Source: Promethearchaeota archaeon (GTDB lineage: Archaea > Asgardarchaeota > Lokiarchaeia > Sigyniarchaeales > SOKP01). Taken from it: a DNA stretch of 37,281 nucleotides. This document shows positions 1,894 to 23,467 of the stretch, piece after piece. The stretch spans positions 1 through 37,281 of the forward strand of contig WJIS01000225.1 of assembly GCA_014730165.1 (NCBI GenBank), in the 5' to 3' direction. The notes below the pieces were generated by a model, which was not told the origin of the DNA, did not search any database, and saw only the letters and a program-made list of their open reading frames with translations. Both the position numbers and the translations under genes were made by a program. How positions within the stretch are numbered: position 1 is the first letter of the stretch; each line of letters starts with the position of its first letter.

Positions 1894-3288
1894 TTACTCT
1901 ATTTCATTTTTTTCTTTATACTTCATTTCTTTTACTTTATGTAGCTCGTGTACTTTTTCCTTTTTATCTCTCCATTTTGGGCCATCTAATGGATAGAACT
2001 TCATTCCTATTACTGCAATTATAAGAAATATAATTGGGATAACACAAAATGCAAATATAATACCAAATAATGCCATATCTGATTGAGGAGACACTTCTTC
2101 TTTAAAACCAAATACTCCGAGAATCAGTAGGAATAACCAGTTCGCGATTGAGATAGCTGGTTTTTGTACAAGAGCGTTTACTCCACCATAAATTGCTTCT
2201 CTTCTCTTCCCAGTAATTAATTCGTCATTATCTATTATATCACCCATTATCACGGGATTACTTACCATAGCCCCCGCAAAACCTACTCCTATGATAAAAT
2301 ATGGAATTGATGAAAGCAAGGCATTATATGCTACAATAAATAGACCTGCAAATCCGATTATTATTAAGCTGAGGTTGATCATCATTGTTTTTTTAGGATA
2401 CCACACATCAATTTTTTTTACATTTATGAACATTCCGACAACGATTCCGATAACAAACGTTAAAATGAAATAAATAATATTCTGACCGGCTACTATATAA
2501 TCTAAATAATAGAGTAGGGCGGTCTGAAAGTTAGGATATACTAAATATATACAAAATGCGGGTATCATAAATATCCAGAATGCCTTATTTTTTAAAGTAA
2601 GCCTTAAACCTTCTACAAATGGTTCATGGGGTTGTAACTGAGCAAATAGATTTTCTTTATAGAAAAATGAAGTCCCGAATAATAGAAGTGTTGATATAAC
2701 AGCGATTAAGATAATTACAGGTGCAAAGTATGAGGGGATACCTTCTGGAATAGTAAACAATATAATTGGAAGAACCAATCCTAATATAATATTGATAAAT
2801 CCAATCACTGCGCTATAAGCACCTAGACTTGCTCGTTCTTTTGCCGAAACCGCAATTTCATTTGGAAGGGAGAAAAAACATGCCCCAACAAAAGTATAAG
2901 CTGTGTCTAAGAGAAATAATGCCGCCAAAAAGTTAATGAAAAGAAGAAGTTCATTATCTAATGGAGCTATCGGAAACCAACAAAAAAGAAATGCCAATCC
3001 ATAAAAGAAAGAGCCGTATCGAATATAAGGAATCCTTCTTCCAAGTTTCGTTCTTGTATTGTCAATAATATAAGATGCTATCGGATCGTTTATGGTATTC
3101 CAGAACATAAAGATGAGCCAGCCAATTCCAAGAATATCCTTATCAGCTCCAAGTTTTATATTATAAAAAAAAGTTAGATTTGCAAATACAAGTGAATTTA
3201 ATAATCCATTACCAAGTCCTCCGAAACTAAAGCTAAGTTTAGCCTTTATGGGTACTTTTTCTTCAGAAATTTTAGTAGGTTTCTCCAT
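1894..3288 (-). CDS. GPH-family sugar:cation symporter (MFS)
   Basis: 464 residues, about 12 hydrophobic segments, full length for the glycoside-pentoside-hexuronide (GPH) branch of the major facilitator superfamily. The loop between helices 2 and 3 carries the family motif (WNTINDPIASYIIDNTR, then KLGRRIPYIRYG); the mid-protein loop (about 215-235) and the charged C-terminal tail are also typical. It would import a sugar with H+ or Na+. It is transcribed away from the GH32 hydrolase gene at 3448, with 159 bp between, so the likely cargo is sucrose or a short fructan; the substrate is inferred from that neighbour only. Confidence 0.85.
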   Translation of the reverse strand: MEKPTKISEEKVPIKAKLSFSFGGLGNGLLNSLVFANLTFFYNIKLGADKDILGIGWLIFMFWNTINDPIASYIIDNTRTKLGRRIPYIRYGSFFYGLAFLFCWFPIAPLDNELLLFINFLAALFLLDTAYTFVGACFFSLPNEIAVSAKERASLGAYSAVIGFINIILGLVLPIILFTIPEGIPSYFAPVIILIAVISTLLLFGTSFFYKENLFAQLQPHEPFVEGLRLTLKNKAFWIFMIPAFCIYLVYPNFQTALLYYLDYIVAGQNIIYFILTFVIGIVVGMFINVKKIDVWYPKKTMMINLSLIIIGFAGLFIVAYNALLSSIPYFIIGVGFAGAMVSNPVIMGDIIDNDELITGKRREAIYGGVNALVQKPAISIANWLFLLILGVFGFKEEVSPQSDMALFGIIFAFCVIPIIFLIIAVIGMKFYPLDGPKWRDKKEKVHELHKVKEMKYKEKNEIE

Positions 3289-3447: not shown

Positions 3448-4869
3448 ATGACAACTAATAAACCCAAATCACTTAAAGCAGCTCTCTCTGAATTTGATGA
3501 ACTAAGACGGAAAATTCAGAAAGACTCTCAAAGACCTGAATATCATTTTCTAGCTCCCGTGAGATGGATGAATGATCCAAATGGACCTGTATTCGCTAAC
3601 GAAAAATACCATATATTTTATCAGTTCAATCCATTTGATGACACTTGGGGACATATCCATTGGGGGCATGCAATAAGTGATGATTTAATTCATTGGAAGC
3701 ATTTACCAATTGCATTAATTCCATCAATAGAAAAAGGCGAACAACATTGCTTTTCGGGTAGTTGTGTCATTGATGATGGCACTCCTAAAATTTTGTATAC
3801 AAGCATCGGTCCGAATAAACCTCCCTCTGTTGGAGCAGAACAATGGTTAGCAGTTGGAGATAAAAATTTAATTCATTGGGAAAAATATACTAAGAATCCT
3901 GTAATGACTCTTGATCTTCATAGTTCATTAGATGTTAGGGATTGGAGAGATCCATTCATCTGGAGAGAAGGAAACATCTGGTATTGCGTATTAAGCGGAC
4001 ATTTAATCAAACCAAAACGCCCATTAGTATTGCTTTATCGATCAGTTGACCTTAAAAGTTGGGAGTATATAAATCCATTGCTAATAGAGGATCGGAAAAA
4101 AGGGAAAAACTGGGAATGTCCTAATTTTTTTAAAATCAGAGATAAATATATTTTAATTGTATCTCCTCATAAAAAGGTGATTTATAATATTGGAAATTTC
4201 ATGAACAACAAGTTTGTTCCTTCTGAATGGAAAATATTTGATTATGGAAACTCTTTTTATGCAACTAATATTTTATCTGATCCAATAGAGAATCGTATTA
4301 TTCTTTGGGGTTGGATTCAAGGAGGAGGAGACATTAAAGGATGGAATGGATGTCTAAGTCTTCCGAGAGTATTAAAATTAGATGCTCGCAATAATCTAAT
4401 AATAAATCCTTTACCAGAACTTAAGATACTCAGAAATGAACAAAAACATTTTCAAAATCTCATAATAACTGAAAAAGATGAGGATAATATATTATTTAAG
4501 GGTACTCTTATGGAATTGAAAATCCTTATTGAAAATGTATCTGCTGAAAAAGTTGGATTTTACCTATATTCAGATAGAAACTCTAATAATAAGTATTCAA
4601 TAGGGTTTCATAAAAGTAAGAATTTTATTTGGGCAGGTAAAGAAATAGCTGAAATTGATGAAAAAGTAGATGATCACACCCTAAAATTACATATATATAT
4701 TGATAATTCGGTGACTGAAGTTTATGTTAATAATAGATATTGTCTGACAAGTAGAATCTTCATAAAAGACAATAAGAAATTCTCCTTGGTGCCATTTTCA
4801 GAAGATGGAGAGTTTAAGATAAAAGAGATAGATATCTGGGAATTAAAACCAATTAATAATAAAAAATAG
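3448..4869 (+). CDS. GH32 beta-fructosidase (sucrose/levan/inulin hydrolase)
   Basis: 473 residues with no signal peptide, so probably cytoplasmic. The five-bladed propeller carries the GH32 catalytic triad: nucleophile D43 in WMNDPNG, transition-state stabiliser D168 in DWRDPF, and acid/base E223 in WECPNFF. Supporting family motifs are YHIFYQFNPF (54-63), WGHAISDDLIHW (72-83) and FSGSCV (102-107). Residues about 345-465 form the C-terminal beta-sandwich. It hydrolyses terminal fructose from sucrose or fructans; chain-length preference cannot be read from sequence. It is divergent from the GPH symporter. The stop lies 4 bases from the stop of the convergent M32 gene. Confidence 0.93.
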   Translation: MTTNKPKSLKAALSEFDELRRKIQKDSQRPEYHFLAPVRWMNDPNGPVFANEKYHIFYQFNPFDDTWGHIHWGHAISDDLIHWKHLPIALIPSIEKGEQHCFSGSCVIDDGTPKILYTSIGPNKPPSVGAEQWLAVGDKNLIHWEKYTKNPVMTLDLHSSLDVRDWRDPFIWREGNIWYCVLSGHLIKPKRPLVLLYRSVDLKSWEYINPLLIEDRKKGKNWECPNFFKIRDKYILIVSPHKKVIYNIGNFMNNKFVPSEWKIFDYGNSFYATNILSDPIENRIILWGWIQGGGDIKGWNGCLSLPRVLKLDARNNLIINPLPELKILRNEQKHFQNLIITEKDEDNILFKGTLMELKILIENVSAEKVGFYLYSDRNSNNKYSIGFHKSKNFIWAGKEIAEIDEKVDDHTLKLHIYIDNSVTEVYVNNRYCLTSRIFIKDNKKFSLVPFSEDGEFKIKEIDIWELKPINNKK

Positions 4870-7270: not shown

Positions 7271-8779
7271 TTAGCCAAATGTTTCTTTTTCAACGAAATG
7301 ATCGGCAGCAATTATTAAATCCTGAAGTCTTAACTCTCTTCCTAAACTTTCTTGAATTTCCTCAAGATATTGCTTACATAAGCTAAGATTTAATTCACTT
7401 CCTCTTTCAAGGATCATTTGACTTAACAATTCGGCGGGATCAGAAACTTCATTTAGATTGTCAATTTTTTGTTCAATTCTCTCCTTAGGCTTTTTAGATT
7501 CTTTAACTTTTTGTACTTTTTTGCTATTTTTCATTTTATTTTTCGAATTTCCCGGGATATGAATGTTTATTTTGACGTCTTCCGGTTTCAATCGTAAATT
7601 ATTAATCCTTTCTTTTTTTGGCTTGTTCGGTTGATTCTTCTTAGTCGGCTTTTTCTCTACTTTCTCAGATTTCGGAAGATTCTTTACAGACACCTTTGTC
7701 GAAAATTTAATCTGTTTAGGAGGAGCAAATTTCTTTTTTCTTTCTATTCTCTTTCTTATTTCAGTTTGTTCTTTGATCTTTAATTCAAGAGCGTTAACAT
7801 TTTGCTTAAATTGTTCTACATAGGAAAAATATTGAAATTCATTTGATATTTTAACTAATTCCTTATATTTCGCTAAAGCTTTAACCAAATTTCTTTCTAA
7901 TTCGAATTTTTCCGCTTCTGAAATTAAATCTTCAAAATTTGAAGGAAGCTTTTTCTTGAGTTTTAATTCTTTCGCGATCAATTCCAATACTTTTGACTTA
8001 GCATCAGCTTCTTTTAATGATATAAATTCGACTTCTGGTCCATCAAATTCATTTTTAAATTTCTTAATGGTGTTTTCATCAACCAAATCAACTTTATTTG
8101 CAAGTAATATTAATTTTGATAAAGGACTCTCTCTTTTTTTAAGAGTTAAAAAATTATCTAGAACTTTCAGATTATATTTTTCAAGACTAAACAAAAATAG
8201 AATTAAATCGGAACCACTAATAAACTTCGACCATAATAGTGAAAAATTATCTTTTAATTGGAAATTCCAAACATCAAATTTTAGATCGAATATATTTAGA
8301 ATAGAAGCTTTAGCAAAATTCATAATACTTCTTTCTTCAGTTTTTTCAGTAAGCATTTCATATAAGGTTGTTTTTCCGGCGTTTAATGGACCCATAATAG
8401 CTATTTTCGAATGTATTTCTGCTTGCATACTCTCTAAGAAGTTAATAAATTCTGAACGTTTTTCGTCTGTTTCTTTTATCTCTTCCAGATTGCTAAACAC
8501 TTCCATAAACTTTTTCTTCGTCTTGGTAAGAATACTCTCTACATAATCAATAGAATCCACTAAATCTGAAATAAAAATAAAGTAGTATGCACCCCCGCTT
8601 GTATGAAATACTTGAAAATTAGAAATAGGTCTATGGTGAATCTTTCCCGGCATTGGCATTTGAATAAAGGTTTCAATGGAATCCATGATGTTTTGGAATC
8701 CCTCCTCCTCAAATGCTAACGCAAGAGTATGAGTGAATACCCGTTTTCCCTTGTGCAAAATATGAATCTGTCTTAGCAT
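7271..8779 (-). CDS. Longin domain fused to an Arf-like (probably degenerate) small GTPase
   Basis: 502 residues. 1-95: a longin domain like that of SNAREs and signal recognition particle receptor alpha (MLRQIHILHKGKRVF ... AYYFIFISDLVDSIDYVE ... FMEVF). 120-275: a small GTPase of Arf/SR-beta type with P-loop GPLNAGKT (130-137) and NKVD (228-231); FDVWNFQ...LLW aligns with Arf FNVWDVGGQ...PLW. At switch II, N172 replaces the Mg-contacting Asp, L175 the Gly and K176 the catalytic Gln, so nucleotide binding without normal hydrolysis is likely. 285-345 is helical, 345-425 a very basic linker, and 440-502 an acidic helical tail. Divergent from the 9001 operon. Domain calls are good; function is inferred. 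Confidence 0.82.
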   Translation of the reverse strand: MLRQIHILHKGKRVFTHTLALAFEEEGFQNIMDSIETFIQMPMPGKIHHRPISNFQVFHTSGGAYYFIFISDLVDSIDYVESILTKTKKKFMEVFSNLEEIKETDEKRSEFINFLESMQAEIHSKIAIMGPLNAGKTTLYEMLTEKTEERSIMNFAKASILNIFDLKFDVWNFQLKDNFSLLWSKFISGSDLILFLFSLEKYNLKVLDNFLTLKKRESPLSKLILLANKVDLVDENTIKKFKNEFDGPEVEFISLKEADAKSKVLELIAKELKLKKKLPSNFEDLISEAEKFELERNLVKALAKYKELVKISNEFQYFSYVEQFKQNVNALELKIKEQTEIRKRIERKKKFAPPKQIKFSTKVSVKNLPKSEKVEKKPTKKNQPNKPKKERINNLRLKPEDVKINIHIPGNSKNKMKNSKKVQKVKESKKPKERIEQKIDNLNEVSDPAELLSQMILERGSELNLSLCKQYLEEIQESLGRELRLQDLIIAADHFVEKETFG

Positions 8780-9000
8780 AATTCTCTATTCATTATTGTG
8801 TTGTTAGGTGATAAACCTATTGTAATAATAAAAGAATTTTTATTAATAGTTATTTATAAAAATTCCTTATATATACATGTAAATCCATATTAATTTATTT
8901 TTTTTTATAATTATAAAATTAAATATGAACAAAACAAGATAAAAATTAATAGAACCCAAAATTTATCTTTTATAAATAAGCCTTCCCATAAAGTTAAACT
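8780..9000. promoter_or_regulatory. Divergent promoter region; TATA-like box at 8969-8978
   Basis: This 221-bp AT-rich spacer separates two outward-facing genes. TTTATAAATA-like sequence at 8969-8978 lies about 23-30 bases before the ATG at 9001, the distance of an archaeal TATA box from the transcription start, so the 9001 message is probably leaderless. A second TATA-like stretch (CTTATATATAC, around 8867-8877) could serve either strand. Confidence 0.4.
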
Positions 9001-9966
9001 ATGCCTTTAGAAGATTCTCACATTCTTAATTTTCTTGATAATCCAGTAAATGACAGATATAAGTCTGAGATCTTGGATCTCCTTATTCAGAGGATAAATG
9101 ATCTCTGTTTTAAGGAATGTCAAGTAGATAGAATCTCATGCACTCTTACTCCATTATGTTCTCGGCGTTTTCTACTTAGGCTTCGCATTAAAAATGAATT
9201 AGGAATGGAAGATCTTCCAAAATTTTGCTATAGTGTTCACAAGGGAGTGGTTGAGAGAGATTTTCGAGGTAAAACTGTAGTATATAAGCCATCGGATAGT
9301 TATTTATTTTTAATCGATTTTCTGGATATTTTTTTCCATGGCGATTATCGTAAATTAAATAAATTTATATCATTTAAAAATTGGAAAGACGCATTAGAAA
9401 TATTTGAAGAAAGGATTGCGAATGGAGAATCATTCAGATACGTCAAATCAGAAAATTATTTCGTATTTAAGTATGAAGATCGTTTACACATAATATTTTT
9501 GAATAAAGACTATGTCTTAACTAATGCAAATCGAGAAAATATAGAGAGTTTAGAATTAATCAAGGATATCATCGAATTAAATTCCTCAATATCTTTTCCT
9601 GAGATTAGGATTATTTTACATGCAAGCCAATTCGTAGAAGTAAAAGTAAAAATACCATTTGATATCATCTCGAAGTTGAATAGTGATGGAATCGCGTCTA
9701 CTGAGGGGGAAAAAAAGGAGAATCCAGATTATTACTTCTGGCATCAATTCCCAAAGGATCTAGAAAAATTATCTGGATTATGTGATAAAATAACACTTCA
9801 GATGAATCAATTTAATGATTTAATGCTCACATTATTTATTAATAAAGAAACATATACATCTACCGATGAAAGTAGACAAAATATTCCTCTCCGCTACAGG
9901 GATTTAGAAGAGATAATTGATTTTATAGAATTTCTTTATACTAAATTTTATATAATTTGGGTTTAA
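9001..9966 (+). CDS. Uncharacterised protein with an N-terminal cysteine cluster
   Basis: 321 residues; not recognised. The N-terminus has a cysteine group (C36, C40, C47, C53, C76) with spacing that could hold a metal but matches no family I can name. Residues 80-215 look like mixed alpha/beta with several aromatic strands (YLFLIDFLDIFFHGDY), and 215-321 alternate strand and helix. No signal peptide or clear membrane segment. It is the first gene of an operon: the stop is 16 bp before the HEAT/coiled-coil gene, which has its own GGTG site. It is divergent from the longin-GTPase gene, so a shared role in a membrane or scaffold process is possible but unproven. Confidence 0.7.
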   Translation: MPLEDSHILNFLDNPVNDRYKSEILDLLIQRINDLCFKECQVDRISCTLTPLCSRRFLLRLRIKNELGMEDLPKFCYSVHKGVVERDFRGKTVVYKPSDSYLFLIDFLDIFFHGDYRKLNKFISFKNWKDALEIFEERIANGESFRYVKSENYFVFKYEDRLHIIFLNKDYVLTNANRENIESLELIKDIIELNSSISFPEIRIILHASQFVEVKVKIPFDIISKLNSDGIASTEGEKKENPDYYFWHQFPKDLEKLSGLCDKITLQMNQFNDLMLTLFINKETYTSTDESRQNIPLRYRDLEEIIDFIEFLYTKFYIIWV

Positions 9967-9982: not shown

Positions 9983-11062
9983 ATGAATGAAAGAAATGAT
10001 TATACTCAAGAAATAGAGACTATTAGGGAGTTAGTAAGCGAAGGAAGAATAGATGATGCTGTAAAAAAAATTGCTTATTACTTGAATTTAGGTCCCGAAG
10101 ATGAGTATATAGATCGTTTAGAAAACATAATAGAAACTGTGTTAACACTTCATGGAGGTAGAACAGTTCTAAGATTCTTAATTGAGAATATGATTATTGA
10201 TATACCATCATTATTGGAAAACCTTTCGAAAAAGGATAGCGTTTTGAGATATTCATTTTTACTACTTCTAAAATCTATGTGTGAAAATGAATTCGATTTG
10301 TTTCTACCGTATATCGAAGATTTATTACAATCTGATGATCCAAATGTAAAAGAAGCGGCATTACAACTCATTATATTTATAGCAGGCGGAGATAAGAAGA
10401 TCACGGAAGAATCCAAGGTCCATGCGGTGGCAGATAAACTTTCAGATGAAAAAGACTTTGTTATTGAAAAAGCAATTCAAGCAATGAAAGCAATTGGGAA
10501 AGATTCTCCCTCTTTGATTACGAACATCTTAAAGGATTATGCAAAAGAATTCTCCGAAGACGAAACTCTAAAAAATAATATTGATAATGTGTTAAAATCC
10601 ATAGTATCTGTAGAAAAAATAGATGAAATCGTAGAAGAAGAGAAAACGAAAGAAAAAGAAGAGTCCATTATAAAAGAAGAGAAAAAAAAAGAAGCTAAAG
10701 ATGAAAGCGATGAGGAAGTTGAAGAAGATGAGGATGAGCCTGAAGTTATTGATGAAGAATTAGAAAAAGAAGAAAAAGAGATTAAAACTAAGGAAATTGA
10801 ATTAAAAAAGAAGGATATTGAATTAAAGAAAAAGAAATTGGAATTAGAAGAGAAAGAAAAACAATTGGAAGAGAAGGAAATTGAAGAAAAAGAAAAAGCT
10901 CTCAAGAAAAAAGAAGAATTACTTGAAAAAGAAAAACAATTATCCCAAGTTGAACTTGAATTAAGGAAGAAAAAAGTGGAAGAAAAAGAAAAGAAAATTA
11001 AGGAAGAAGAAGCAAAGCGCATCATGAAAAAAATAAAAGAAATAGATGAGGATTCCGATTAG
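9983..11062 (+). CDS. HEAT-repeat-like protein with a long charged coiled coil
   Basis: 359 residues in two parts. 1-205: paired helices of HEAT/Armadillo type (for example SDDPNVKEAALQLIIFIAGG and DKDFVIEKAIQAMKAIGK-like repeats), a protein-binding scaffold. 215-255 is a strongly acidic, disordered stretch. 255-350 is an almost pure Glu/Lys/Leu heptad coiled coil, built of near repeats of ELKKKDIELKKKKLELEEKE. SD GGTGA sits at 9971-9975, 7 bases before the ATG. Such proteins act as scaffolds or tethers; the exact role is unknown. Second gene of the 9001 operon. Confidence 0.78.
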   Translation: MNERNDYTQEIETIRELVSEGRIDDAVKKIAYYLNLGPEDEYIDRLENIIETVLTLHGGRTVLRFLIENMIIDIPSLLENLSKKDSVLRYSFLLLLKSMCENEFDLFLPYIEDLLQSDDPNVKEAALQLIIFIAGGDKKITEESKVHAVADKLSDEKDFVIEKAIQAMKAIGKDSPSLITNILKDYAKEFSEDETLKNNIDNVLKSIVSVEKIDEIVEEEKTKEKEESIIKEEKKKEAKDESDEEVEEDEDEPEVIDEELEKEEKEIKTKEIELKKKDIELKKKKLELEEKEKQLEEKEIEEKEKALKKKEELLEKEKQLSQVELELRKKKVEEKEKKIKEEEAKRIMKKIKEIDEDSD

Positions 11063-11720: not shown

Positions 11721-12704
11721 TCAAATAGGTGTTTCTTTTAATCTTTTCTTAATTTTCCTTACTTCTTGTAGTTTCACACTTTCGGAAGGAAGATTCTTTA
11801 ATAATTCTTCAGCTATTTTATAAGCAAGTTCAATATAATTCAGTGCTTCTAACAATTCTATTATTTGAATTTTGTAATCACTATCAGTAAAGAACTTTTC
11901 ATATTCTTTCAGTTTTTCCTTAATAGGTTCAGATATTTGTGCAGTAGTATTTATATCACCAATTTTCTTAACAAGTTGGTTAAAACTATTCATAATATTG
12001 TATGCTTCAGATTTCGGGTACGCATCAATATTTTGTAGTATCTCCTTTACAAAGACTTCTGCTTTTTCATAACGTTCATTTAAAATGCTAATCGGAATCA
12101 ATTCTAATAGTGCTAGTTCATAGAGAAACTTACTCTCGATATTTGGAATTACTTTCTCATATAGCCATTCAATTAAATTTGGTTGATTGAATTTATTAAT
12201 GATATCTACTAAAAATTTTACAACTGAAAAGTATAACTTTGCATTTTCGGTTTTAGTAGAGGAGAGAAACGAGATTAAAGCATATTTAACTCTTCCCATC
12301 GCATCATCAAAGTTGATAGGCTCTTCGGCAAATTTATAATATGCTGTTTCTAATACAGGCTTAATTTTGTCTTTATTTTTAAAATCATATGTGAAATAAT
12401 CGGACCAAGAAGGTTCGGGGATTTTTGAAGATTTTTTAGATTTTTTTTTACCTTTTTTTTTAGGCTCTTTCTGAGATTTTGAAGTGCTACTCTCTTCTTG
12501 TACGAGGGTATCGACCTCTTCTTCAGATAAAATCTCTAAAATAATCTTATCCTTTTTATTCGGTACTTTCAAATTAAAATATATATCATCGGAATCATCA
12601 AAAAGCATTTCCCTGAGAGCTTTAGGGATTGTAATACCAGTTTTTGTCTTTTTAATAATTTCTTGAAAGAATAACTCTGATTCGGAATCATTTTTCTCTT
12701 CCAT
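11721..12704 (-). CDS. AbrB-like domain fused to a TPR-like helical protein
   Basis: 327 residues. 14-62 look like a SpoVT-AbrB domain (KKTKTGITIPKALREMLF, then DDIYFNLKVPNKKDKIILEI). 63-100 is a Ser/Lys-rich disordered linker. 105-325 is all-helical with TPR-like helix pairs (for example NERYEKAEVFVKEILQNIDAYP, and LNYIELAYKIAEELLK near the end). This combination, a DNA-binding fold on a helical adaptor, is not one I know. It starts 22 bp after the upstream membrane zinc-ribbon gene, so the two are probably an operon. The AbrB call is a sequence-pattern match, not confirmed. Confidence 0.72.
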   Translation of the reverse strand: MEEKNDSESELFFQEIIKKTKTGITIPKALREMLFDDSDDIYFNLKVPNKKDKIILEILSEEEVDTLVQEESSTSKSQKEPKKKGKKKSKKSSKIPEPSWSDYFTYDFKNKDKIKPVLETAYYKFAEEPINFDDAMGRVKYALISFLSSTKTENAKLYFSVVKFLVDIINKFNQPNLIEWLYEKVIPNIESKFLYELALLELIPISILNERYEKAEVFVKEILQNIDAYPKSEAYNIMNSFNQLVKKIGDINTTAQISEPIKEKLKEYEKFFTDSDYKIQIIELLEALNYIELAYKIAEELLKNLPSESVKLQEVRKIKKRLKETPI

Positions 12705-13493: not shown

Positions 13494-14102
13494 TCAACCC
13501 GATACATTTACCAATTCAACTCCACGTACATCAAAGTTTCTATCAATAAAAACTAAGATGGCATGACCTGCATGAGTATAAACCAACGGTACGGGAAAGT
13601 CTTCAGCATTTTCTATAAATGACTTTTTTACATAAATAGGGAGAACTTTCTTACAAACTCTACAATACGCATTGATAGGTTTTATTAAATCTAATTTATC
13701 TATATTTTGTAAGAGGTCTTCCACGGTGGAAGCGAAATTTTTAAATATGTTAGAGGAGGCATTTTCAAAGGATAATATTACATCCACTTCATAGGTTTCA
13801 TTAAATTTTTCATCTATTTTTTCTAAAATTGCTTCTAAGAGTTGAAATTGAACTCCATTCCCTGCTCCAGCTGTATAAATTAGATTATTTTTTCTAATGT
13901 GTACAATTTTACTATTTCCTTTGTGAATATGAAAAAAGATATCATTGGTTGCATGTTCTTTTACAATATTTAAGTCTAAAACATAACTTTTGAAGGAACG
14001 GGGAGGTTTCCACTCAAAAATAGACATATAATCACTGCTAATGTTTATAAAATTGAGCTTTTCTTTAAGATTAGACAGATCGGGCTTCATAAAAGCATCC
14101 AT
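13494..14102 (-). CDS. Possible longin-like protein with a CxxC/HxxH metal site
   Basis: 202 residues, not firmly recognised. Residues 66-103 (IVHIRKNNLIYTAGAG, then QLLEAILEKIDEKFNETY) look like the strand-turn-helix of a longin/adaptin-type fold. The C-terminal part has C147-x2-C150 and H177-x2-H180 on either side of a short beta segment, which would make a Cys2His2 zinc site, followed by FIDRNFDVRGVELV. No signal or membrane segment. M5 is an alternative start. It is divergent from the methyltransferase gene at 14293, with about 190 bp between. Confidence 0.65.
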   Translation of the reverse strand: MDAFMKPDLSNLKEKLNFINISSDYMSIFEWKPPRSFKSYVLDLNIVKEHATNDIFFHIHKGNSKIVHIRKNNLIYTAGAGNGVQFQLLEAILEKIDEKFNETYEVDVILSFENASSNIFKNFASTVEDLLQNIDKLDLIKPINAYCRVCKKVLPIYVKKSFIENAEDFPVPLVYTHAGHAILVFIDRNFDVRGVELVNVSG

Positions 14103-19561: not shown

Positions 19562-20806
19562 ATGCAACAAGAAACAACATATCTGAAGTTATTTGGTAAA
19601 AATTTGATAAGTTTTCAAAAGCGGGACACAGGAGAAATAATAGGAACAGGATTGCTTAATCCCCTCATTGAAAGACTTAATATAGTCACGATGTTTGTCA
19701 TCCAAGCAAAATTCTATAGAGCATACAAAGAATTAGGTAAATGGAATGGAAAACGAGTTGCGAATACATTTGCGCCGCCTGTAAGGAGTGGAGCAATGTG
19801 GAGAGCTTTATTAGCATCATTAAAATCACGTATTTTTCATAGTCACTATCCAGTGGCAATGACTTTTGCTGTTACCTATGATTGTCAATGTAATTGTATC
19901 CACTGCAGTGCGGGAAGACATAAGCATGAGAATAAGCTTCAGTTGAATATAGCTGAAGCTAAGAAACTTATTGATGATAGCTTGAAACTGGGCATTTCAA
20001 TTCTTGCTTTTACCGGTGGTGAACCCCTCTTAAGAAAAGACATATACGAACTTATCTCTTATGTAGATAAGAAAAAAGCGGTACCATTGTTGTTTACGAA
20101 TGGGGAATTTTTAACAACTGAAAATGTAAAAAGACTAAAGAATTCGGGATTATATTCTCTTTTTGTTAGTTTAGATAGTCATACTCCCGAAGAGCATAAT
20201 AGATTAAGAAAAAGAAAAGACCTTTTCCAAAACGCAATTGAAGGTATAAAACGAGCAAAGCAAGAGGGATTATTTGTAGGAATCTCCACTTATGCCACTC
20301 GAACAGGAACTAAAAATAATGAATTCAAGAAATTATATTCCCTTGCGAGAGAATTGAAACTCCATAATGTAATGCTTTTTGATGGTGTAGCAACGGGTAA
20401 AATGTTGCATGATACAAGCGAATTACTAACCGTTGAACAGCGGCAAAAAATTAGAGATTTTTCATCATATATATTTAATCATAATGTTATTCCGCCGTTA
20501 TCCTCGCAATCATGGCAAAACTCCATCGAGGGATATTTAGGAGGGATCGGATGTTTAGCAGCAAATATCCAATATTACGTATCTGCTTATGGAGATGTAG
20601 CACCGTGTGATTTTACTCCACTTTCATTCGGAAATATTAGAAAAGAACCACTTAAAAAAATATGGAAGAAAATGATTACTCATCCTGCATATAATTATCG
20701 AAGCACATTCTGTAGGATGCAGCATCCAACCTTTCGGAAACTTTTTATCGATCCTATACCCGATGATGCAAGTTTACCTTATAATATTGAAAATTTTAGT
20801 GTTTAA
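19562..20806 (+). CDS. Radical SAM/SPASM-type protein
   Basis: 414 residues. The [4Fe-4S]-SAM motif is C108-x3-C112-x2-C115 (YDCQCNCIHCSAG), followed by the SAM-binding TGGEP (151-155). C331 (GIGC), C349 (VAPCDF, then SFGNI) and C384 (TFCRM) form a partial SPASM-like auxiliary-cluster region, as in enzymes that modify peptides. A 100-residue N-terminal extension precedes the barrel. No small precursor peptide gene was seen next to it, so the substrate is unknown. The last 107 coding bases (20690-20796) are repeated at 21704-21810. The stop overlaps by 3 bases the stop of the opposite-strand PIN gene. Confidence 0.9.
   Translation: MQQETTYLKLFGKNLISFQKRDTGEIIGTGLLNPLIERLNIVTMFVIQAKFYRAYKELGKWNGKRVANTFAPPVRSGAMWRALLASLKSRIFHSHYPVAMTFAVTYDCQCNCIHCSAGRHKHENKLQLNIAEAKKLIDDSLKLGISILAFTGGEPLLRKDIYELISYVDKKKAVPLLFTNGEFLTTENVKRLKNSGLYSLFVSLDSHTPEEHNRLRKRKDLFQNAIEGIKRAKQEGLFVGISTYATRTGTKNNEFKKLYSLARELKLHNVMLFDGVATGKMLHDTSELLTVEQRQKIRDFSSYIFNHNVIPPLSSQSWQNSIEGYLGGIGCLAANIQYYVSAYGDVAPCDFTPLSFGNIRKEPLKKIWKKMITHPAYNYRSTFCRMQHPTFRKLFIDPIPDDASLPYNIENFSV
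20690..20796 (+). repeat. 107-bp direct repeat, copy 1 (3' end of radical SAM gene)
   Basis: The last part of the radical SAM gene, nearly identical to 21704-21810 at an offset of 1014 bp: three mismatches by hand count. It ends 6 bases before the PIN gene's stop codon. This copy is the functional one. Confidence 0.9.
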
Positions 20807-21228
20807 GATATATTTGTTGGTACCAATCCTTTAAAATGACTATCAAAGGTTCCTAGAAATTTGCATTTAAGACGTTTATACAAAACTAAAATTGAGCAAT
20901 CGGTAAATGAGAGACGGTTATTTGAGAATTTTTTGAATAACTTCCAAGAATTTTCAAAATCAATTATAGTTATTTCAATTAGATGAATGCGTGGGCTTGA
21001 TAGAATATATTTCCCAATATCTTTTGCAAAATCGATATTTTTTAATCTAACCAATGCTAATGTGACAACTTCATCAAATATATATGTGGAAGTATATATT
21101 TCTCCAAATTCATTCTTTAAAAATCGTTTCATCCATAGTTGAGCTTGATCAAAATTTTTATCTTCCTTATTCTTTAAACCTATTAAAAATCCTGTGTCTA
21201 GAAATACTCCCATTCCATTAATCCTCAT
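20803..21228 (-). CDS. vapC: PIN-domain ribonuclease toxin (VapC-type)
   Basis: 141 residues; internal M6 is an alternative start that would remove the overlap with the antitoxin. Acidic site: D11 (FLDTGFLIG), E53 (FDEVVTL), D110 (SFTDCSILV), D129 (TFDSHF), complete and in order. The first residue after the last active-site block and the stop lie against the end of the radical SAM gene. It follows the antitoxin gene with an 11-bp overlap. It would cleave a structured RNA unless held by its antitoxin. Confidence 0.88.
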   Translation of the reverse strand: MRINGMGVFLDTGFLIGLKNKEDKNFDQAQLWMKRFLKNEFGEIYTSTYIFDEVVTLALVRLKNIDFAKDIGKYILSSPRIHLIEITIIDFENSWKLFKKFSNNRLSFTDCSILVLYKRLKCKFLGTFDSHFKGLVPTNIS

Positions 21229-21490
21229 CTATTTCATATAAATACTTATCTACCTTTTCTGATAAGTCAGAGATACCTAATGAATAAGTTTTTTTTAACC
21301 CTGTCCATGCGGGATCCCTCTCTAATGGTGGCAATTTTTCAGTACTTTTTAATCCCTCAGATGATGCAGCATTTTCAATTAATTTACCTATAAATTCTTT
21401 CTTAGAGATTTTCTTGCCTTTTAAGGTTAGGTATGCGATTATCTTATCTAAAAGTTTTGCATGTTCTTTATCAATTCTTATAGTACTCAA
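21218..21490 (-). CDS. vapB: Antitoxin of the PIN toxin (VapB-type, probably RHH)
   Basis: 90 residues. Residues 1-45 (MSTIRIDKEHAKLLDKIIAY ... KKISKKEFIGKLIENA) have the strand-helix-helix pattern of a ribbon-helix-helix DNA-binding domain; the rest is an acidic tail likely to contact the toxin. It overlaps the PIN gene by 11 bp. The 21-bp palindrome at 21535-21555 lies upstream and is a likely operator. The start ATG is the only good one in frame. Confidence 0.78.
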   Translation of the reverse strand: MSTIRIDKEHAKLLDKIIAYLTLKGKKISKKEFIGKLIENAASSEGLKSTEKLPPLERDPAWTGLKKTYSLGISDLSEKVDKYLYEIDED

Positions 21491-23044: not shown

Positions 23045-23467
23045 ATGAAGACTGTTATAGCAGATGCTTCCATTTGGATTGGAGCTTTAGTGAAAAAAGA
23101 CAAATGGCATGAAAATGGTAAGAAATTTTTGAAATGGGTGGATAATGAAGCAAATATAAGAGTTATTATTCCAATTGGAATTATTTATGAAGTTATCGCG
23201 GGAATATTGAATAAATCTTATGGGGGATTTGAAAAAGCTAATAAAGTTCTCAAATTATTTATGAATCATAAAAAATTTGAAGTCTATTATAACACGGAAA
23301 ATTCTTTTCAGGAAGTAATTGATATCTTTAGACAATATAAAATTTTTAGTTTAGTTGATGCTACAATAGTTATATTCTATGAAAATAAAAAATTTGATTT
23401 ATTATTTACAACTGATAAAGATTTTGATTCTTGTTCATTTATAAATAAATTAGAATATCCTGTCTAA
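23045..23467 (+). CDS. PIN-domain ribonuclease toxin (VapC-type), third in the window
   Basis: 140 residues, a complete PIN domain. Acidic site: D7 (IADASIWIG), E49 (IYEVIAG), D105 (SLVDATIV), D124 with extra D126 and D128 (TTDKDFDS). It follows a two-gene unit at 18-bp spacing, so it is likely the toxin of a module with unfamiliar partners. Its sequence differs clearly from the other two PIN genes. T7 at 23501-23507 could end the transcript. Confidence 0.87.
   Translation: MKTVIADASIWIGALVKKDKWHENGKKFLKWVDNEANIRVIIPIGIIYEVIAGILNKSYGGFEKANKVLKLFMNHKKFEVYYNTENSFQEVIDIFRQYKIFSLVDATIVIFYENKKFDLLFTTDKDFDSCSFINKLEYPV

Follow-up and report, generated by a model that had tools for sequence, protein, structure and literature searches.

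A lokiarchaeal longin-Arf-like fusion family that lost its switch residues and is kept beside two linked genes: a probable non-cycling scaffold

The window (the whole stretch of DNA that was analysed, 37,281 nucleotides) carries on its minus strand a gene, starting with ATG at 8779, which an earlier note had read as a longin domain fused to an Arf/SR-beta-like GTPase. This gene, which we call the target, its domains and motifs, and the genes that accompany it are as follows.

7271-8779, minus strand: whole gene (502 aa), i.e., longin, Arf-like pseudoGTPase, three-helix segment, basic linker and C-terminal helical domain
8417-8779, minus strand: longin domain, residues 1-121 (AlphaFold2 and AP-sigma-like profile)
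7952-8416, minus strand: Arf-like G domain, residues 122-276 (Pfam, AlphaFold2 and tree)
8369-8392, minus strand: P-loop GPLNAGKT, residues 130-137, kept in 47/47 orthologs (set A3)
8312-8323, minus strand: switch I replacement M153-N-F-A156, with Met where canonical paralogs have the Mg-binding Thr of PT
8252-8269, minus strand: degenerate switch II WNFQLK, residues 171-176, replacing WDFAGQ (motif alignment)
8087-8098, minus strand: G4 motif NKVD, residues 228-231 (motif alignment)
7727-7951, minus strand: three-helix (MIT- or TPR-like) segment, residues 277-351, common to canonical paralogs
7460-7726, minus strand: basic low-confidence (disordered) linker, residues 352-440 (AlphaFold2 and composition)
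7274-7438, minus strand: acidic C-terminal three-helix domain, residues 448-502, kept only within the target's orthologous group (hereafter the pseudo group)
8780-9000, no strand: intergenic region between the target and its divergently transcribed neighbour
9001-9966, plus strand: 321-aa protein with near-invariant C36, C40, C53 and C76 (the four-Cys protein), conserved neighbour
9983-11062, plus strand: protein with a HEAT-repeat N-terminal half and a long charged coiled coil, conserved neighbour
11721-12704, minus strand: helical protein, often linked (41/48 neighbourhoods)
13494-14102, minus strand: protein of 202 aa, weakly similar to longins and with a Cys pair (30/48 neighbourhoods)

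Elsewhere in the window, 3448-4869 encodes what we take, from its WMNDPNG motif, to be a GH32-like beta-fructosidase; it lies beside a sugar-transporter-like gene (1894-3288) and may be bacterial in origin. AbrB/PIN-type toxin-antitoxin-like genes were recognised by eye at 632-1352, 20803-21490 and 23045-23467.

An AlphaFold2 model of the target built from 47 orthologs (mean pLDDT 82.4) contains a longin topology of b-b-a-b-b-b-a-a at residues 2-121 (pLDDT about 90), a G fold at 125-271, helices at 282-350, a low-confidence stretch at 370-430 and three C-terminal helices at 448-501. The structure prediction that the earlier note had named as a check of its longin-Arf fusion supports it, since the longin and G folds are both predicted to be complete, and Pfam Arf matches the G domain at 31.5 bits, above its cut-off of 22.3. 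The best Foldseek matches are small GTPases of Rab, Arl, Ran and Rag kinds, so structure alone cannot single out Arf or SR-beta; phmmer against the PDB placed 8oun, an archaeal-type GTP-binding protein, first, and the ArfR proteins 8oun and 8oum are the solved structures nearest to the target sequence taken singly. The basic linker (29 K/R against 9 D/E over residues 352-440) and the acidic helical end (5 K/R against 11 D/E over 448-502) that had been described earlier are seen in both the residue counts and the model. An MIT domain was considered for residues 277-351 and set aside, the PDB profile search having given weak TPR-like matches (best E 0.024); we call this segment MIT- or TPR-like. 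A PDB search for a relative of the C-terminal domain (448-502) found none.

The target longin begins with MLRQ, and R3, D72 and D75 are invariant. In the PDB profile search, the longin profile aligns gap-free to AP-2 sigma over residues 1-102 (E=1.4e-4), hhalign of the target longin against a sigma-type chain gave 86.7%, and Clat_adaptor_s is matched by 11/27 longin domains in Pfam. The longin domains of the pseudo group and of the intact paralogs are homologous; AP-sigma likeness was also sought in the longin of the intact paralogs and was not found there.

In small GTPases, the switch I Thr binds Mg, the Gly of DxxG contacts the gamma-phosphate, and the Gln serves catalysis. Measured against the Arf switching motifs, the target group has the P-loop and NKxD and lacks both the switch I Thr (PTxG) and WDxGGQ. 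The P-loop and NKVD, claimed earlier to be intact, are found at residues 130-137 and 228-231, and among the 47 orthologs P-loop GK[TS] is present in all and NKxD in 40. The replacement of DxxGQ was likewise read exactly (N172, L175 and K176), but N172 is not a family feature: Asp172 is kept in 45/47, with Asn solely in the window protein and one ortholog (L082). Gly175 is lost in 47/47 (to L/I/M/A) and Gln176 in 46/47, the latter position varying among K/R/E/N/D/Q. Switch I, which the earlier note had omitted, adds a further loss, as the residue aligned with its Thr is Met in 45/47 orthologs and Ile and Ser in the others; IMNFA is a near-invariant new motif of the pseudo group. What is constant in the aligned pseudo group is the loss of the Gly, the Gln and the switch I Thr. 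Nucleotide binding without normal hydrolysis, as had been proposed, would fit the kept P-loop and NKxD together with the lost switch I Thr and DxxGQ. NKxD is lost in orthologs L039-L041, and two distant orthologs, L043 (4975-7236) and L044 (4705-6942), have lost both the P-loop (GPNYTDRQ and GPSPFDRQ) and NKxD, retaining IMNFA and the C-terminal domain despite the P-loop loss. L043 and L044 may represent the end of a graded series from a nucleotide-binding to an apparently nucleotide-free pseudoGTPase.

Matches of the best-scoring class (E below 1e-80) are present in 30/36 same-family relatives, and the 48 ortholog loci from named genomes are all in Lokiarchaeota/Lokiarchaeia, one of them in Prometheoarchaeum. 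The weaker matches, spread over the class and phylum, belong to another, intact paralog group with GFSGVGKT, PTxTG, WDFAGQ and NKQD; PT, WDFAGQ and NKQD are retained by 13/13 canonical paralogs. The genome of the window has four longin-type GTPases by N-terminal profile (one on contig C358, two on C239, and the target). In a quick G-domain tree with few reference sequences, long branches and no SR-beta included, the pseudo group is monophyletic (SH-aLRT 100, stem 1.32), shares one branch with the intact longin-GTPases (SH-aLRT 89), and the longin-GTPases stand apart from Arf6, from 8oun and from the bulk of the other GTPases encoded in the genome (SH-aLRT 99). Please note that the Pfam and PDB profiles favour Arf, while this few-reference, long-branch tree sets Arf6 and 8oun apart. 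Judged by alignment, the switch loss defines an orthologous group in Lokiarchaeales and is, as far as found, confined there, which makes the 'ancestral' module suggested by the earlier note doubtful, the group sitting on a long derived branch. A sequencing error in one genome was rejected because the loss is common to 47 orthologs. Between close ortholog pairs, dN is about 0.03-0.07 against dS of about 0.13-0.64 with the G domain included (dN/dS about 0.1-0.3). By these rates and the ortholog alignments, the switch loss is evidently old, fixed and maintained under purifying selection; loss of catalytic motifs in orthologs under selection is the mark of a pseudoGTPase.

The four-Cys gene lies beside the target in at least 45/48 loci, the HEAT/coiled-coil gene in at least 43/48 and an M32-type peptidase gene in at least 37/48; all neighbourhood counts are lower bounds, several loci ending at contig ends. 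At two loci (L103 and L104), the four-Cys and HEAT genes are downstream on the target's strand, i.e., the linkage has survived rearrangement. In family f1 (31 genomes, counted by hand), 27 have both the target and the four-Cys gene, three have neither and one has the four-Cys gene alone (Fisher p 0.0009, confounded by gene linkage and possibly by missing contigs); both genes are absent in G005, G021 and G031. Outside family f1 the neighbours of the target vary more, and in G042 the four-Cys gene is about 88 kb off. What the comparison shows at the level of sequence is that one longin-Arf group early lost its switch I Thr and the switch II Gly and Gln and was kept beside the same two genes. A promoter scan of 8780-9000 found no excess over shuffles, with a sigma-70 model that is inapplicable to archaea.

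Relatives of the four-Cys protein are present in 132/196 Asgard genomes, mostly in single copy. A known fold was sought for it and rejected (best PDB match E 0.17, no consistent Pfam match), and its predicted fold had no PDB match; its four near-invariant Cys could form a Zn or Fe-S site. Outside Lokiarchaeales, in several Asgard families, the four-Cys gene often adjoins a gene for a TrmB-HTH/coiled-coil protein of ~1300 aa, and the older trait may hence be the pairing with a coiled-coil protein. Such proteins of ~1300 aa (L137:3404-7297, L130:8911-12834 and L129:3047-7003) carry a TrmB-type winged helix at the N-terminus, and their amphipathic coiled coil is very long and apolipoprotein-like. 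The HEAT half scores 5.1e-8 against Adaptin_N, below the cut-off, and generic HEAT families and designed repeat proteins score equally, so an 'adaptin' identity of the HEAT protein is not established. The 202-aa protein has an invariant H-x-G-H near its C-terminus; homology of its longin-like part to the target longin was rejected (probability 7.6%).

The earlier note offered an SRP-receptor-like module as a candidate reading; a single chain would then supply both SRX (the longin) and SR-beta (the G domain). The fold pair is indeed the same, longin plus Arf-like GTPase, and SRPRB scores to some extent in 29/47 G domains (best 8.3e-6), but the Arf profile does far better (47/47, best 6.5e-15). 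SRP-alpha_N (SRX) was absent from the Pfam matches of all 27 longin domains at E<=1, AP-2 sigma and Clat_adaptor_s matching instead, and no SRX chain appeared in the PDB search with the target longin (E<=10). FtsY is an ordinary separate gene on another contig, and no SRP gene was recognised within the window. SRX is bound by GTP-bound SR-beta, but the target has lost switch I and II. We consider this reading very improbable, and the AP-2 sigma and Clat_adaptor_s matches, together with the missing SRX signal, move the comparison: judged by its profile matches, the eukaryotic proteins to set beside the longin are AP-type small chains and not those of the SRP receptor.

An active GTPase with unusual catalysis, in which another residue or a partner replaces switch I and II, has in its favour that family f1 conserves the P-loop and NKxD, that Asp172 is retained in 45/47 orthologs, and that GTP hydrolysis without the usual Gln does occur in some GTPases. 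We nevertheless hold it to be unlikely, as the switch I Thr has gone along with the Gly of DxxG, no constant replacement catalyst is seen, and distant orthologs lose NKxD and then the P-loop. It also seems improbable that the protein is a regulator of one of the ~70 other Arf/Ras-like GTPases of the cell, with the longin as a platform of GEF or GAP type and the pseudo G domain as a decoy or dimer partner: the window's genome does contain 72 Arf-profile matches, and dimers of longin/roadblock domains are known to serve small GTPases as platforms (PMC10933270), but the conserved neighbours in the 48 loci include no GTPase gene and the client GTPase is putative. Chance breakage of the motifs in a decaying gene would account for the lost catalytic residues, and we give it practically no credence given an intact ORF in about 48 genomes, dN/dS of about 0.1-0.3, the IMNFA motif and conserved synteny; a pseudogene is ruled out by purifying selection and ORF conservation.

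The explanation that we consider probable is a pseudoGTPase scaffold, i.e., a protein that does not cycle and is not a molecular switch; the lost switches, and a constant pair of partner genes that accompanies the gene across dozens of genomes, suggest such a fixed scaffold. The G domain of the window family, with its kept P-loop and NKxD, would hold a guanine nucleotide as a structural cofactor, and the switch loss implies that it would not alternate between a GDP and a GTP form. Together, the longin and this frozen domain could then make up a fixed platform with a single presented surface; the linker, flexible and basic, and the acidic helical end may reach or bind partners or the membrane. 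The HEAT/coiled-coil and four-Cys proteins, encoded by the linked genes, would be the target's likeliest partners, and we infer that they contact it; please note that linkage is no proof of physical interaction. Some distant orthologs look able to do without even nucleotide binding, which is what one would expect of a protein whose surface, and not its catalysis, matters. Against the scaffold, Asp172 is retained in 45/47 orthologs, and some Mg or phosphate contact may remain. It is possible, yet on the unlikely side, that the locus encodes a lokiarchaeal adaptor-like complex, in which an AP-sigma-like longin fused to a non-cycling Arf-like domain would join the HEAT/coiled-coil and four-Cys proteins. 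If true, the complex would be an independent or a precursor arrangement of AP/COPI parts (longin, Arf and HEAT solenoid) without the GTP switch.

Evidence for early membrane traffic is drawn from the GTPases of Asgard archaea. The present analysis indicates that at least one widely conserved member of the Asgard GTPase set is unlikely to be an ordinary switch and is not simply to be counted as one. The gene module is defined, and its subunits can be expressed and tested.

Among known systems, ArfRs are described, in Vargova et al. 2025 as relayed by PMC12554972, as stand-alone switches with an N-terminal amphipathic helix, and the longin-GTPases lie across the branch with 99% support from the ArfR structure 8oun. 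The N-GTPase of p190RhoGAP, which binds GTP without hydrolysis, and CENP-M, a scaffold pseudoGTPase (PMC10211241), have like the target kept the G fold without catalytic residues, whereas they belong to unrelated lineages and have no longin. Eukaryotic SRX/SR-beta also pairs a longin with an Arf-family GTPase, but in two chains and with a switchable SR-beta, and the target is without SRX sequence signal. The small chains of AP/COPI (sigma/zeta) with Arf1 and the HEAT large chains resemble the target in the sigma-type longin and the Arf-like domain, and the locus in its adjacent HEAT gene with a weak Adaptin_N score, a HEAT signal that is generic; they differ in that the target is one chain, accompanied by just one HEAT protein, which is short and has a coiled coil, with no mu chain or appendage seen at the locus. 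Closest are the lokiarchaeal longin-Arf fusions, of which five were reported in Lokiarchaeum by 2016 (as summarised in PMC4917890, citing its reference 23) and for which longin-GTPase architectures of MK-D1 were modelled in 2024 (PMC10933270). Such fusions are hence already published, and we found no description of the switch-less subfamily or of the gene module in the searchable literature, which mostly excludes subscription papers. They share with the target the N-terminal longin, the Arf/Rag-like G domain, the three-helix segment and the clade, and they are not described as switch-less. The target group is set apart from the reported fusions by its own C-terminal domain, its conserved gene neighbourhood and the fact that DxxGQ has been lost as well as the switch I Thr.
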